A DNA stretch of 23,243 bases from a virus, in the IMG/VR virus record IMGVR_UViG_3300009161_000243, positions 1 through 23,243 of that record. The stretch is one strand, 5' to 3'. Below the pieces are notes generated by a model. It was not told where the DNA came from and made no database searches. It saw only the letters and a program-made list of their open reading frames with translations. Position numbers and translations under genes: made by a program. Shown in pieces: positions 5,278 through 21,167 of this stretch (position 1 is the first letter of the stretch; each line of letters begins with the position of its first letter).

Positions 5278-5285
5278 GCAAATGA
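5256..5285 (+). CDS. possible nine-residue leader peptide
   Basis: ATG at 5256 to TGA at 5283-5285, encoding MTNNKQQSK. The stop shares bases with the ATG at 5282 (ATGA), so ribosomes ending here could restart on the membrane coiled-coil gene. The first seven residues match the N termini of the proteins at 5018 and 9821. It may be a coupling leader, or only the remains of a start module whose gene was lost. Confidence 0.35.
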   Translation: MTNNKQQSK

Positions 5286-5536
5286 TACAAAACTACTTAA
5301 TTATCGGAATGGCAATCTTGTTTGTCATAACCCTTCTCCAGTTGCACAAAACAACTGAACGAGAAGATGAGCTACTTGAAACCATCTCAAACAAGAATCG
5401 TTTGATTTGGGATTATGAAACCGAACTGCTGGAGATCAGGTCAAAGATTCAAGAAGCAAATGACCGTGCAAAAACTTGGGAACTACAAGCCACATTTCTT
5501 AAAAATAAATACGATGATAAAAGCATTGGTAGTTAG
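5282..5536 (+). CDS. membrane-anchored coiled-coil protein
   Basis: 84 residues. A hydrophobic N-terminal segment (YLIIGMAILFVITLLQL, about 4-20) is followed by a heptad-like charged helix to the end (EREDELLETISNKNRL, then EIRSKIQEANDRAKTWEL). This signal-anchor plus coiled-coil layout resembles inner-membrane spanin components, but no outer-membrane lipoprotein partner is evident nearby. The start overlaps the nine-codon leader stop by three bases. It ends in TAG. Confidence 0.65.
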   Translation: MIQNYLIIGMAILFVITLLQLHKTTEREDELLETISNKNRLIWDYETELLEIRSKIQEANDRAKTWELQATFLKNKYDDKSIGS

Positions 5537-8758: not shown

Positions 8759-8831
8759 AGATGAGATGTTGCGTGTAAAGAAAAAATACGAAAACAATGG
8801 TTATATTTGTAGTATTGAAAAGAAAATGTGA
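8682..8831 (+). CDS. hypothetical small protein (49 aa)
   Basis: 49 residues from the ATG at 8682, overlapping the DnaA-like gene by 77 bases in another frame. The part after the overlap (RSEDEMLRVKKKYENNGYIC then SIEKKM) reads like a real alpha/beta end, and the stop overlaps the GTG start of the next gene. The long overlap makes the exact start uncertain; an ATG near 8763 would avoid it but leave only about 22 residues. Function unknown. Confidence 0.5.
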   Translation: MSNLYPYWVCICTKGLSSSIHILRSEDEMLRVKKKYENNGYICSIEKKM

Positions 8832-9337
8832 ATAAAGCGGAAATAATAGAGGAACTCTCAAGAGCTGACTGGCTTACCAAAGCCACGAGGAACATCGCCA
8901 AGAACAATGAGTTGGCAAGGGAACTCTATCAATTTTACTTTCTGACCATATTGCAAAAACCTGATGAACAAATTGAAAAAATATACAACGACGGATACAT
9001 CCAGTTTTGGACAATCCGTCTTTTGTACCTTTGTATCAACGGCAACCGGCATCCCTTTGGTGAATCTCGGATATATGATCAATACGATGTCTATGACTTG
9101 CACTTGTCTGAAGAACCCGACCTTCTTTTGGAACGGGAGGAAGATGAACGAATCGAACAAAAGCGAATCAACAAAATAAATCAAGTAACTGAAGAAGCGT
9201 ATTTCTATGAAAGGGAGTTATTCAAGTTATGGTGTTCGGGAATGTCAGCACGAGCAATCCACCGCCAAACGGATATTTCAGTCAGGGAGATATTGCGTGT
9301 AGTAAAATTAATGAAAGAAAGATGTACAACGAAATAA
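8828..9337 (+). CDS. sigma-70-like / helix-turn-helix transcription protein
   Basis: 169 residues starting at GTG (8828; GTGA overlap with the stop before). The N-terminal half has a region 2-like helix pair (ELARELYQFYFLTILQKPDE then IYNDGYIQFWTIRLLYL). The middle is acidic. The C-terminal half has YERELFKLWCSGMSARAIHRQ, in outline a region 4-like helix-turn-helix (MSARAIHRQTDISVREILRVV as two helices). This two-domain form resembles the short sigma-like proteins of Bacteroidetes phages. It may redirect host RNA polymerase to late genes, but the promoter it would read is not known. A plain DNA-binding regulator is the alternative. Confidence 0.65.
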   Translation: MNKAEIIEELSRADWLTKATRNIAKNNELARELYQFYFLTILQKPDEQIEKIYNDGYIQFWTIRLLYLCINGNRHPFGESRIYDQYDVYDLHLSEEPDLLLEREEDERIEQKRINKINQVTEEAYFYERELFKLWCSGMSARAIHRQTDISVREILRVVKLMKERCTTK

Positions 9338-9576
9338 TTGGAATTGCTTGTCTAAGCATCATCATCGTCAACTTCGGCAAACCAGCCGACCTACTCAAAC
9401 GCTATCTCTACGGAAGCGACTATTCCAAATGGAAACGAATGAAACCACTTGACTGTGCTTTTTGCTTGTCGTGGTGGCTTGGCTTGTCGTTTTTTATATA
9501 CACCTACGGATTTGTGGGTATCTTGTACGCATCCATAGCAACGGTAATTGTTGCACTACTTGAAACAAAACTATGA
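9322..9576 (+). CDS. small multi-pass membrane protein
   Basis: 84 residues from the ATG at 9322. The frame is open further upstream but that part overlaps the sigma-like gene. There are two or three hydrophobic segments (EIIGIACLSIIIVNF at 4-18, WWLGLSFFIYTYGFVGILYASIATVIVALL from about 50 on) and a central cysteine pair, C-A-F-C-L-S-W-W. The size and topology would suit a holin-like or accessory envelope protein; the cysteine pair next to two Trp is distinctive, but I cannot name the family with certainty. It sits between the sigma-like gene and small genes, with a 16-base overlap upstream. Confidence 0.7.
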   Translation: MYNEIIGIACLSIIIVNFGKPADLLKRYLYGSDYSKWKRMKPLDCAFCLSWWLGLSFFIYTYGFVGILYASIATVIVALLETKL

Positions 9577-11126: not shown

Positions 11127-11302
11127 CATCACAAGACAAAGCACAAGAAATCAAAGAATCGTTCAACAACTCGTTGACGGTCAAGGATTGCTCATTGGTT
11201 GCAGTTGACCAAATTATTGAGGCGTTGTCTCATAACTCGTGGCAGAATCGCAATGAGTTGATGTTCTATTTGGAGGTCAAACAAATACTGCAAGAATTAT
11301 GA
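11123..11302 (+). CDS. hypothetical helical protein (59 aa)
   Basis: 59 residues from the ATG at 11123 (ATGA overlap with the gene before). The whole protein is helical and polar (QDKAQEIKESFNN, then NRNELMFYLEVKQILQEL). The frame is open upstream of 11123, but that part is the other strand of coding logic for the DUF551-like gene. The stop overlaps the next start. Function unknown. Confidence 0.65.
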   Translation: MTSQDKAQEIKESFNNSLTVKDCSLVAVDQIIEALSHNSWQNRNELMFYLEVKQILQEL

Positions 11303-12042
11303 GGGTTATACAATCCGGACATCTTGGTGATTTGATCTATTCACTTACGGCAACCAAGCGAGTTGCGGAGTTGCACGGTGCGGTAGATTTCCACATCGGA
11401 TTCCGTGAGCAGAATACTGTTTTAGGTCATCCAAGCGGAGGGTACTGTATGAACTTAAAATCGTACGAATACATTAAACCCTTGCTTGAGCATCAATTGT
11501 ACATTAAAAGCGTTGAGATGAACTCACACCCCGACATTGGATATAACTTCGACAAGTTCAGGAATCACGGATTGAATCTATCTGCTGGTGATTTAAGGCG
11601 GAATCACTTTCTTGTGTACCCCGAATTAATGTCTGACCTTCACGAACCTTGCATTGAAGCGACTGAACCTATCCCGTACTTTGCGGACAAGATACTTTTG
11701 AACTTCACATCTCGTTATCGCAATTATGATATCAACTATTTCCCACTCAAGGAACACAAGTGCGTTTTCTTTGGATACGAAGATGAGTACATTGCATTCA
11801 CCGATAGATGGCAGTTGGATTGTGAACTTCTCAAATGCCAAGATGCTTTGATGTTGGCAACTATTATTGGCAGTTCAAAGGCATTCATCGGAAATCAGTC
11901 AAGCACCTACGCCATTGCAGAACAAATGAAGGTAAAACGATTGCTTGAGATATGCGTTCACTCACCGAATGTCATCCCCATCAACAATGGCTTTGACTAT
12001 GTCACGAATCAAGCGTTCAATCACCTACTTAAAACTCTATGA
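11299..12042 (+). CDS. GT9/heptosyltransferase-like glycosyltransferase
   Basis: 247 residues. It begins MRVIQSGHLGDLIYSL, the G-x-x-G-D loop seen near the N terminus of heptosyltransferase (GT-B) enzymes. The second half has C-V-F-F-G-Y-E and F-I-G-N-Q-S-S-T-Y-A-I-A-E-Q near 196-209, like the nucleotide-sugar-binding side of the same fold. It should transfer a sugar, acting on the phage particle, on DNA or on host surface glycans. It is shorter than cellular heptosyltransferases (about 350). It is coupled to the neighbours by four-base overlaps and paired with the GT4-like gene. Confidence 0.75.
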   Translation: MRVIQSGHLGDLIYSLTATKRVAELHGAVDFHIGFREQNTVLGHPSGGYCMNLKSYEYIKPLLEHQLYIKSVEMNSHPDIGYNFDKFRNHGLNLSAGDLRRNHFLVYPELMSDLHEPCIEATEPIPYFADKILLNFTSRYRNYDINYFPLKEHKCVFFGYEDEYIAFTDRWQLDCELLKCQDALMLATIIGSSKAFIGNQSSTYAIAEQMKVKRLLEICVHSPNVIPINNGFDYVTNQAFNHLLKTL

Positions 12043-13028
12043 AATTACTGATATTAACTGACGGAATGAATGGTGTAGTTTACCACCGATTATTCACGCC
12101 ACATCTTCGGATGCAAATTGACGGACAAGCGGATGTCAGCGTTTGCCAATCACAAGAAGAATGGCTCACCCTTGACTATCGTGCATTTGATGTGATCATA
12201 TTCTCACGATGGCTTGGTTCAAAGCATTATGATGTGTTGAAGAAGATTGCAGATTCAGGCACTCCCTATGTTGTGGACATTGATGACTATTGGGTTCTCC
12301 CAAAATACAACCCGGCATATTGGGCATATCGCAAAGGAATCAAGCAATGCGTGAAGGATGCTATCAATTACGCTGATGCGGTGACAACCACAACTCTGCA
12401 CCTTGCAAGTGAGATTCGCTTGATCAATGAGAATGTTGTCATAGCATCCAACTGTCTTGACTACACACACAAGCAATGGGAAGCCGAACCTATGGAACGA
12501 ACCGACAAAGTAAAGGTCGGATGGGTTGGTGGAGTAACTCACGAAGAGGATTTGAAGTTGATTGCTGACCAAATCAAAGGACTTGACATTGAGTTCTACA
12601 TTTGCGGTTATACACCAGGAGAGATTTGGAATCGGATTGCCAAGAGTATGCCTGATGCAAAGATAGTTGAAGGTACATCGGTGTTTGAATATGGTGAGGT
12701 GTATCGTCACTTTGACATCGTGGTTGCACCGTTGCAAGACAACAAGTTCAACAACTGCAAATCTGAGCTGAAGATAGTTGAGGCGAGTGCGTATAAGAAG
12801 CCAATCATTTGTTCTGATGTCTATCCGTATATGTACCACTTAGGAAACGATGGGGTGTTGTTTGCAGAACGCAACGATTGGAAACTTGCCATCCAAAAAC
12901 TGATTGATGTTGGTCATTCGGTTCGTCAGTCAATGGGATTGAGCAACTACGACTACTGCCAAAAGCATCACAACCTTGAACTACACAATTTGACAAGATT
13001 GCAGTTATACAAATCGTTGTGCAAATAA
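12039..13028 (+). CDS. GT4-like glycosyltransferase
   Basis: 329 residues. Visible GT-B features are PYVVDIDDYW near 86-95, K-V-G-W-V-G-G-V-T-H at 158-167 (start of the C-terminal domain), and P-L-Q-D-N-K-F-N-N-C-K-S-E-L-K-I-V-E-A-S-A-Y-K-K-P-I near 236-261, which contains the E-x-x-x-x-E-A type nucleotide-sugar site. The order and length fit family 4. The acceptor is not evident. It forms a two-gene glycosylation unit with the gene before it, lying between the small and large terminase genes. Confidence 0.82.
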   Translation: MKLLILTDGMNGVVYHRLFTPHLRMQIDGQADVSVCQSQEEWLTLDYRAFDVIIFSRWLGSKHYDVLKKIADSGTPYVVDIDDYWVLPKYNPAYWAYRKGIKQCVKDAINYADAVTTTTLHLASEIRLINENVVIASNCLDYTHKQWEAEPMERTDKVKVGWVGGVTHEEDLKLIADQIKGLDIEFYICGYTPGEIWNRIAKSMPDAKIVEGTSVFEYGEVYRHFDIVVAPLQDNKFNNCKSELKIVEASAYKKPIICSDVYPYMYHLGNDGVLFAERNDWKLAIQKLIDVGHSVRQSMGLSNYDYCQKHHNLELHNLTRLQLYKSLCK

Positions 13029-13387
13029 ATTACACACGACCATATCTAACCAACTACCAAAAAGACATCCTTGATTGCGATGCCCGTTTCACTATTACGG
13101 CTGCGAGTACCAAGACAGGCAAGACCGCATCACATATTATTTGGCTCTTTGAACAAGCACTCCAATGCAAGGATGGTCAGTCCGTGTGGTGGGTTGCCCC
13201 AGTATACCAACAAGCAGAGATTGCATTCCGAAGGATGAAGAACCAAGTCACGGACAAAAACTTCTTTATCAGCAACGAAACAAAACTATTGTTGACCTTG
13301 CCAACGGGTGCAAGGATTGAATTCAAGTCAGGTGAGAAACCGGACAACCTTTATGGTGATGATGTGTACGCTGCCGTGATTGATTAG
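13019..13387 (+). CDS. terL: terminase large subunit, ATPase part (stops at in-frame TAG)
   Basis: 122 residues, starting at GTG (13019) inside the end of the glycosyltransferase gene. It holds the Walker A-type loop ASTKTGKT at 29-36 and ends Y-A-A-V-I-D at 117-122, the Walker B strand. The next codon, 13385-13387, is TAG where the family has the catalytic glutamate. The same frame continues with A-S-R-M-R-E-E-S-W, which is how this family reads on after Asp-Glu, into the nuclease part. Read through, the protein would be 395 residues, normal for a large terminase. As written, the ATPase fragment lacks its catalytic Glu. Confidence 0.88.
   Translation: MQINYTRPYLTNYQKDILDCDARFTITAASTKTGKTASHIIWLFEQALQCKDGQSVWWVAPVYQQAEIAFRRMKNQVTDKNFFISNETKLLLTLPTGARIEFKSGEKPDNLYGDDVYAAVID
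13385..13387 (+). other. in-frame TAG replacing the Walker B glutamate codon
   Basis: The bases GAT TAG GCA stand where D-E-A is expected. A single G-to-T change turns GAG (Glu) into TAG. The two halves are in the same frame (13019 and 13397 differ by 378 bases). An ATG follows at 13397. Confidence 0.9.
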
Positions 13388-13396
13388 GCATCAAGG

Positions 13397-14206
13397 ATGC
13401 GTGAGGAATCGTGGTACGCACTCCGTTCAACTCTGACTGCTACACAAGGCAAATGCAAACTGATTGGGAATGTCAAAGGCAAGAAGAATTGGTTCTATAA
13501 ATTAGGTGAACGAGCAAGGCAAGGAGAAGCAGAATACAAGTATTTCAAAATAACGGCATACGATGCTGCAAGGGAAGGCATCATCTCGGAGAAAGAGATT
13601 GAACAAGCGAGGCGTGATCTACCTGATTATGTATTCCGTGAACTCTACCTTGCAGAACCAGCCGATGACAAATCAAATCCGTTTGGCTTGGATGCAATCC
13701 GCAAATGTTACCGACCAATATCATCAATGCCCGTTGTTGCGTGGGGTGTGGATTTGGCAAAGTATTCGGATTACACGGTAATCATCGGACTGGATGCAAA
13801 CAACTGCGTGAGTTTCTGCGAACGATTCCAAGCGGATTGGTCAGTCACTCAAGCGAGGATTGTCAAACTGATTGGCAACACACCATCGTTCATTGATAGT
13901 ACTGGTGTTGGAGATCCTATCGTTGAACAACTACAAAGGATTTGTCAAAGAGTGAAGGGATTCAAGTTCACAAGCCAAAGCAAACAACAACTGATTGAAG
14001 GGTTGGTGATGTCGGTGCAACAAACCGATGTCTTTTTCCCTGAAGAACCGATTGGAAGTGAGATGGAGAACTTTGAATTTGAATATACAAGAACGGGTGT
14101 GCGATATACTGCACCGCCCGGACTACACGATGACTGTGTGATGGCTCTTGCACTTGCCGTTGATTGCAAAGCTCACAATAGACCAGGAACATTTTATTTT
14201 GCATAG
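13397..14206 (+). CDS. terL: terminase large subunit, nuclease part
   Basis: 269 residues from the ATG at 13397, in frame with the upstream ATPase part. It carries T-L-T-A-T near 12-16 (ATPase coupling motif), then the RNase H-like nuclease with acidic residues D119 (W-G-V-D-L-A-K), D167 (F-I-D-S-T-G) and D245/D246 (G-L-H-D-D-C). The nuclease cuts concatemeric DNA during packaging. If ribosomes restart at this ATG, a free nuclease half would be made. The ATG is probably just a natural Met of the full-length protein. It ends in TAG, so TAG is a true stop here. Confidence 0.88.
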   Translation: MREESWYALRSTLTATQGKCKLIGNVKGKKNWFYKLGERARQGEAEYKYFKITAYDAAREGIISEKEIEQARRDLPDYVFRELYLAEPADDKSNPFGLDAIRKCYRPISSMPVVAWGVDLAKYSDYTVIIGLDANNCVSFCERFQADWSVTQARIVKLIGNTPSFIDSTGVGDPIVEQLQRICQRVKGFKFTSQSKQQLIEGLVMSVQQTDVFFPEEPIGSEMENFEFEYTRTGVRYTAPPGLHDDCVMALALAVDCKAHNRPGTFYFA

Positions 14207-14250: not shown

Positions 14251-14811
14251 ATGAATTGGAAAAACATAACCATTCACCAACTACAAGAGATTCACTCTTG
14301 TCGTGATATGTCTGACCTTGAGAGGCAGATGAACATCCTTGCCATTGCTTTGAATCTTTCAATGGATGAGGTCGAGTCAATGACATTGGACAAGCTCACA
14401 ACCGAGTTTGCAAAGTTGTCGTTCTTGAATGACCTACCAAAAGCACCCATTCAGTTTATGTTCAAACTGCGTGGTCGTTATTTCAAGTTAGCCAAAACGC
14501 CAAACGAGATGTGCGGTCACCACTTCATCGAACTCCAGCAAGTATTCAACGGAGATGTGATTGAATCGCTAAACAAGATTGTTGCGTTGCTATCGATTGA
14601 GGTGGATTTCTTTGGAAGGAACAAGAAGGTCGTTGATGCTCAGGCACACTATGAGGACAAATGTGCGTTGATGATGCACTTGCCCGTTCCCCTTCCGTAC
14701 ACCTATGCTCTTTTTTTTTTGGAAGTTTATCCCGAGTTATTGAAAAATATCCTTTGCTCTTTGAAGGAGGAGATGAAGGATATGACGGAGCAGTTGACCA
14801 ATCCCCAATAG
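14251..14811 (+). CDS. tail assembly chaperone, short form (gpG-like)
   Basis: 186 residues, mostly helical, starting MNWKNITIHQLQEIHS. In form it resembles the tail chaperone proteins of Bacteroidetes phages (N-terminal W-x-x-I-T-I, P-x-x-F-M-F-K-L-R-G-R-Y near 72, a helical end LLKNILCSLKEEMKDM). The T10 run at 14711-14720 lies at codons 154-157; in the zero frame it reads L-F-F-L and continues to TAG. The -1 frame continues to 15011, so two products are likely, as for lambda gpG/gpGT. The 44-base gap before it has an ATG mini-frame but no clear promoter. Confidence 0.7.
   Translation: MNWKNITIHQLQEIHSCRDMSDLERQMNILAIALNLSMDEVESMTLDKLTTEFAKLSFLNDLPKAPIQFMFKLRGRYFKLAKTPNEMCGHHFIELQQVFNGDVIESLNKIVALLSIEVDFFGRNKKVVDAQAHYEDKCALMMHLPVPLPYTYALFFLEVYPELLKNILCSLKEEMKDMTEQLTNPQ
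14711..14720 (+). promoter_or_regulatory. T10 slippery site for -1 frameshifting
   Basis: Ten T in a row. In the zero frame of the chaperone gene the heptamer T TTT TTT (14712-14718) has the required X XXY YYZ phase. Slipping one base back joins the zero frame to the open frame ending at 15011. No strong stem-loop is obvious just downstream. Confidence 0.65.
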
Positions 14812-15011
14812 TTTGGCTGGAGATAGTTGACAAGATTGTCAAAGGTGATCGCACCAAATGGGACTTCATTCTTGATATGCCATTGATTGAGTTCTTGAAT
14901 GCGATGGCGTTCTACAAAGCCAAGACCAAAGAACGGCAGAAACGATTGGAGGATGCAGCCGGGAAAGGATTCAATCCGTACATCGTGGCTTGTCTGAACG
15001 AGATGTTGTGA
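14718..15011 (+). CDS. tail chaperone -1 frameshift extension (gpGT-like)
   Basis: 97 codons in the -1 frame relative to the chaperone gene, from the slippery site to TGA at 15009-15011. The segment reads as good protein (E-K-Y-P-L-L-F-E-G-G-D-E near its start, then W-L-E-I-V-D-K-I-V-K-G-D, then helical F-Y-K-A-K-T-K-E-R-Q-K-R). No ATG or GTG starts it before residue 53, so it needs frameshifting, or a distant start. The joined product would be about 253 residues. In the family the long form is thought to bind the tape measure protein. A homopolymer length error could also produce the split. Confidence 0.65.
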   Translation, partial: FGSLSRVIEKYPLLFEGGDEGYDGAVDQSPIVWLEIVDKIVKGDRTKWDFILDMPLIEFLNAMAFYKAKTKERQKRLEDAAGKGFNPYIVACLNEML

Positions 15012-19401: not shown

Positions 19402-21167
19402 TGGCACTAAACGCAACGATTGACTTAACCGTCAAAAAACCTGACTTCAAATCAATGAAGTCCGAAATAAAGGAACTGACCATCCAAGCTCAACAAGCGG
19501 TGATGCAGTTCGGTGAGTTCTCACCTGAAGCACTCAAGGCAGAAAAAGCACTTGCCGGTGCAAGAGATAGGATGGAGGATTTCAATGATCGTGTGAAAGC
19601 GGTCAATCCTGATAAGTTTGCCAAATTAAATACAGTTGTTTCGGGTGTTGCCAATGGATTTGCAGCAGCACAAGGGGCAATGGCATTGTTCGGAAACGAA
19701 TCGAAGGACTTCGAGAAGACGATGATCAAGTTGCAAGGTGCAATGGCGTTGTCACAAGGTCTTGAAGGACTTGGAAAGATTCAACAACAATTCGGTGCAA
19801 TCTTCAAAGATGTTGTCAGCGGTGCAAAGAAAGCATTTGCAGCAATCAAAGCGGGTATTGGTTCAACGGGTATCGGATTGATTCTTGTTGCTCTTGGGGC
19901 AATTGTTGCATATTGGGATGACATCAAAGAGGCGGTGAGTGGTGTGAGTGAGGAGCAAAAGAAACTTTTGGCAGATGCACAAAAAGCGGAGAAATTAGAA
20001 AGAGACAAACTGGATACGCTGAATGCTCAAGACAACATCTTGAAACTTCAAGGATTGACCGAAGAAGAAATTCTTCAATTAAAAATAAAACAAACCAATG
20101 CGGTAATCACACAACTTGAGGCACAATTGATGGCTCAAGAAACAATGAAACAAGCTCAGATTGATGCTGCTCAAAGAAACAAAGATATCCTTCAAGGAGT
20201 TATTCGCTTTTTGACTTATCCTTTGACTTTGTTGTTGATGACCATTGACAAAGTTGGAAAGGCATTGGGGCAAGATTTCGGATTAGAGGAAGCATTTAGC
20301 GGTGGACTTGCGAACTTGGTGTTTGATCCAAAGGCGGTTGAGAAGGAAGCGGATGCAGCCATCGCTGAAACCAAGAAACAACTCAACACGCTGAGGAACA
20401 CGGTTGCTGGATACACGCTTTCAATTACTGATATCCACAAAAAGGCAGCAGACGATAGAAAAAAAGCACGAGAAGATGCGGACAAAGAAGAACTTGAACA
20501 ATTAAAAAAGCACCAAGAAAGATTGATGGATGCCATTGATTTGGCATATAGCATCAGGCGGAAGAAAATTTATGATAGTGCGGAATTTGAAAAGAAACTC
20601 ACCGGTCAGCAAGTTGTATTGCAAGAAGGACAATACAAAAAAGAGTATTCAGATAGAGAAAAGTTTGGGTTATTTATCAAAACGCAACATTCGGAATTGA
20701 TTGAATCTACACTTGGCTATTTCAATACAATTAGTGAATTGGCTGATGCGTTTGCAACTAATGACGAAGCATCTCAAAAGAGAGCATTCCAAGTCAACAA
20801 AGCGATGAGGTATGCTTCAACCGTGTTGAGTACAATTGAAGGAACACAAAACGCATTCACAACGGCAGCGGATTCACCAATCACCAAAGTGTTTCCTGGA
20901 TATCCATTTGTACAAGCAACGGCAGCAGCATTGTTTGGTGTTGCTCAATTGGCTAAAATCAGAAAGACACAATTCCAAAGTACATCAGCACCATCAGGTG
21001 GCGGACAAATGAATGGCGGTGGAATGCCACAAATGTCAGCACCAAACATCAGCTCATCACTTCCAAAAGTAAGCGGATTTGACACCAAAGTATTTGTGAC
21101 TGAAGGTGACATCCGCAGAACAACCGATCGTGTGGATACTACGAGAAAAGTGTCCGTTGTCAAATAG
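19401..21167 (+). CDS. tail tape measure protein
   Basis: 588 residues. Long charged helices, Ala/Gln/Lys-rich (ELTIQAQQAVMQFGEF, KAEKALAGARDRMEDF), surround hydrophobic stretches near 155-170 (IGLILVALGAIVAYW), 270-285 (FLTYPLTLLLMTI) and 500-515 (ATAAALFGVAQLA), the pattern of tape measure proteins. The C-terminal part is Ser/Gly/Met-rich and flexible. The length sets tail length; 588 residues is short and suggests a fairly short tail. The first base overlaps the stop of the tail protein. It ends in TAG. Confidence 0.82.
   Translation: MALNATIDLTVKKPDFKSMKSEIKELTIQAQQAVMQFGEFSPEALKAEKALAGARDRMEDFNDRVKAVNPDKFAKLNTVVSGVANGFAAAQGAMALFGNESKDFEKTMIKLQGAMALSQGLEGLGKIQQQFGAIFKDVVSGAKKAFAAIKAGIGSTGIGLILVALGAIVAYWDDIKEAVSGVSEEQKKLLADAQKAEKLERDKLDTLNAQDNILKLQGLTEEEILQLKIKQTNAVITQLEAQLMAQETMKQAQIDAAQRNKDILQGVIRFLTYPLTLLLMTIDKVGKALGQDFGLEEAFSGGLANLVFDPKAVEKEADAAIAETKKQLNTLRNTVAGYTLSITDIHKKAADDRKKAREDADKEELEQLKKHQERLMDAIDLAYSIRRKKIYDSAEFEKKLTGQQVVLQEGQYKKEYSDREKFGLFIKTQHSELIESTLGYFNTISELADAFATNDEASQKRAFQVNKAMRYASTVLSTIEGTQNAFTTAADSPITKVFPGYPFVQATAAALFGVAQLAKIRKTQFQSTSAPSGGGQMNGGGMPQMSAPNISSSLPKVSGFDTKVFVTEGDIRRTTDRVDTTRKVSVVK

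Follow-up and report, generated by a model that had tools for sequence, protein, structure and literature searches.

The large terminase (TerL) gene of IMG/VR record IMGVR_UViG_3300009161_000243, a virus sequence of 23,243 bases analysed here in full (hereafter, the window), contains an in-frame TAG where a catalytic glutamate is expected. This raises the question of whether the codon is a functional feature of the phage (reassigned or suppressed, or the boundary of a two-part terminase), a sign of genome decay, or a difference confined to a single contig.

The terminase frame and its interruption

The TerL frame, starting at GTG 13019 and closing at TAG 14204–14206, was open on both sides of codon 123 ('...AAVID*ASRMREES...'; Table 1). 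An N-terminal ATPase domain with Walker A ('AASTKTGKT') and Walker B motifs and a C-terminal nuclease domain were recognized both in the read-through frame and in the intact homologue. With X written at the stop, the read-through product matched Pfam Terminase_6N across the TAG (residues 29–226, E = 1.4e-6); either half by itself fell below the threshold for this family. The intact homologue, taken from the closest contig, matched phrog_2 'terminase large subunit', and in its alignment with the ATPase of Thermus phage P74-26 TerL (PDB 4zni/4znj), 'VIDEAS' paired with 'ILDEAA'; thus, the interrupted codon corresponds to the Walker B catalytic Glu. The P74-26/P23-45 TerL (4zni for the ATPase, entries such as 5m1f for the nuclease domain) has the same ATPase and nuclease layout at about 29% identity and is uninterrupted. 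Judging by the agreement of the frame, the Terminase_6N match and the structural alignment, the TAG genuinely interrupts the frame of an otherwise single TerL at the Walker B Glu, as the sequence-only reading had proposed. The gene is TerL by descent, yet the sequence in this record would not yield a functional terminase. In HK97 TerL, the E154A substitution at the equivalent glutamate abolishes both ATPase activity and packaging (PMC9410871); what this carboxylate does across terminases is covered in a review (PMC7617512).

Table 1. Coordinates of the features discussed, numbered from the first base of the window.
Feature	Position	Strand	Remarks
Large terminase (TerL) frame	13019..14206	+	Terminase_6N, phrog_2, P74-26 TerL ATPase and nuclease structures; one interruption
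In-frame TAG, TerL codon 123	13385..13387	+	Walker B catalytic Glu in all relatives; one base off the closest contig
ATG put forward as a restart	13397..13399	+	Internal residue, the conserved Met of '(D)EASRM', in intact homologues
True TerL end, TAG	14204..14206	+	TAA in a few relatives
TAG ending the tape-measure gene	21165..21167	+	Same codon in relatives: TAA 22, TAG 10

Downstream of TerL, ORF 14251–14811 overlaps an ORF of the -1 frame ending at 15011, with a T-run at 14711–14720. All 188 aligned loci had a run of at least nine T. Around 14700–14820, the codon position that changes fastest moved from that of the first frame to that of the -1 frame. The region 14251–15011 probably contains a programmed -1 frameshift like that of tail-assembly chaperones (lambda G/GT); a search of Pfam and PHROGs gave no family match for either ORF.

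Codon 123 in related contigs

Relatives were collected using the two TerL halves as queries, the best 80 of roughly 390 candidates being taken per search. Codon 123 was GAG in 113 and GAA in 25 of the 138 relative loci obtained in this way, and no stop was found in these loci, either at codon 123 or elsewhere in TerL. After repeats had been removed, 111 distinct contigs remained, all of which (111/111) carried a Glu codon at this residue, which answers the alignment of related terminases that the sequence-only reading had called for; their 41,565 aligned TerL codons contained no stop. When loci retrieved subsequently were included, every one of 248 aligned rows had GAG or GAA, some contigs being counted more than once. 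A degenerate pattern with TAA, TAG, TGA or TGG in place of the Glu codon gave no matches in 2.9 million viral contigs, a scan that may omit the records nearest the window, so that a second record from that assembly might have been missed. As positive controls, the GAR version of the pattern recovered at least 120 stretches, and the stop version matched the window itself.

The contig IMGVR_UViG_3300027770_000190 (30,730 bases) covered the entire window with 8 mismatches and 0 gaps over 23,243 bases. Its TerL frame is intact, with Glu at codon 123, and differs from that of the window by one base of 1,188, namely the one that separates the Glu codon from TAG. The base at 13385 was G in 147 of 147 relative rows, with T private to the window, in line with the proposed single G-to-T change of GAG. 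This was the sole protein-damaging difference between the two contigs. The remaining seven (2049, 2052, 2061, 9298, 9304, 22407 and 22476) were synonymous in the genes judged real, with 9298 and 9304 scored in gene 8828–9337; the overlapping longer reading of 9229–9576 is interrupted in the closest contig. Several alleles of these seven sites also occur in other relatives, and the differences resemble the usual variation between strains subject to purifying selection. The sites 9298 and 9304 are 6 bases apart, and both segregate among relatives (T...A versus A...T).

TAG as a stop codon and the alternative explanations

The statement that TAG ends several genes in the window proved true, although the positions listed for it (53, 1788, 2026, 5282, 13397, 14251 and 19401) are gene starts; the actual TAG stops of these genes lie at 491, 2022, 2353, 5534, 14204, 14809 and 21165. 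The stop at 2022 was TAA in both relatives that align there. Read-through at 21165 would add 198 codons, running in frame into the next gene. Since relatives have TAA or TAG at the codon that ends the tape-measure gene, TAG is a normal working stop in this phage. Reassignment of TAG was rejected on the stop-codon usage together with the homologues terminating at the same codons. TAG-recoding phages (crAss-like and others; e.g. PMC7886860, PMC10607447) likewise have in-frame TAG in a structural or packaging gene, but they carry it inside many genes, and suppressor tRNAs are discussed for them. A recoded phage would be expected to have in-frame TAG in many genes and not to use it as a stop, whereas in the window a single gene is interrupted by TAG, other genes end with it, and the tRNA search was negative. 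A separate observation concerns the TAG at 5534 (ORF 5282–5536), where relatives mostly have a sense codon (AAA, CAA, AAG) and one has TAA; the next in-frame stop in the window is a TAA three codons on, so the small protein may differ by a few residues at its C-terminal end.

Amber codons are the most readily suppressed type of stop, and the tRNAs of the host may include a suppressor; a real amber mutation in TerL could then still yield enough full-length terminase through a tRNA of the host or one lying outside the sequences examined. However, ARAGORN detected no tRNA gene in the window, nor in ten pieces of five near-full-length relatives (29–32 kb), among them the near-identical 30.7-kb contig that contains the whole window, so no phage-borne suppressor is visible. 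The codon also ends several genes, the tape-measure gene included, where relatives use TAA at the same position; TAG at codon 123 is shared by no relative, and a suppressor would have to supply Glu, or another residue that can do its work. Amber suppression, one of the options raised earlier, accordingly has only a very faint probability. Fainter still, close to nil, is that of a two-part terminase consisting of residues 1–122 and a product restarted at ATG 13397. An in-frame ATG does lie 9 bases past the stop, and neither part carries other damage, but this ATG encodes a conserved Met inside the intact homologues, the Walker A motif and the nuclease would be placed on separate polypeptides, and neither piece would carry the catalytic Glu, which is essential in the homologous motor (PMC9410871). 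A genuinely split terminase would show a conserved split with all catalytic residues kept between its parts; none of the relatives is split, and here the Glu is lost. A conserved split was rejected also by the pattern scan with TRR at the codon, which gave no matches in viral contigs with its controls positive.

A prophage beginning to lose its genes would likewise account for the interruption of an essential gene, and the presence of a 60%-identical terminase in a contig of a Mucilaginibacter genome suggests that the relatives may be prophages; this contig and a Phycisphaerales MAG (50%) were the only cellular matches to the terminase. Decay of this kind would be expected to leave several lesions, whereas no other damage was seen, the other differences from the closest contig being synonymous and free of gaps, and the window showed no flanking bacterial sequence. 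Genome decay was rejected on this whole-window comparison, and a decaying prophage is highly improbable. The defective-prophage option therefore finds no support as a description of a decaying genome, although it may hold in the narrower sense of a single defective genome within a population.

Origin and significance of the private stop

The frequency of such stops was estimated from conserved genes of the other contigs, in which 2 in-frame stops were found per 211,943 codons, plus one apparent frame split; at this rate, an occasional private stop is to be expected when many contigs are scanned. Both stops and the frame split fall in the pair of genes immediately upstream of TerL. In the window, the nearer of these positions is occupied by a glycosyltransferase gene (12039–13028, Pfam Glyco_trans_1_4), preceded by a gene (11299–12042) with no PHROGs family match; both are present in most relatives. 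A single substitution would turn any of 144 of the 395 codons of the intact TerL into a stop, so landing on codon 123 is a modest coincidence. No local tandem array that could have caused the TAG was found.

The TAG is thus most probably (about 94%) a single-base difference without function, private to one contig assembled from a metagenome; it is either a wrong consensus call or a rare deleterious mutation. This agrees with the first option of the sequence-only reading, a sequencing or population variant, since the near-identical contig and all compared relatives carry Glu. Between the two forms, our judgement from sequences alone favours error by roughly 60:40. In other respects the contig looks accurate, with no frameshifts and only synonymous differences, and an error would be the sole visible one, so a real variant is quite possible. 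In that case, one or a minority of genomes would be packaging-defective amid phages with an intact terminase. Translation as written would halt after 122 residues, giving a fragment that keeps Walker A but lacks both the catalytic Glu and the nuclease domain; TerL function would presumably be lost, and such a genome could be packaged only through the terminase of a co-infecting intact genome. It is very unlikely that a real amber TerL allele is maintained in the phage population by host suppression or because co-infecting intact phages complement it, and all functional readings together account for a few percent.

Thus, the TAG is best regarded as a real letter in the record and not as a biological feature of the phage lineage. 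Its biological importance is small. It illustrates how a striking stop at a catalytic residue can vanish on comparison with a near-identical contig. The case calls for caution: recoding or split genes should not be inferred from a single metagenomic contig.
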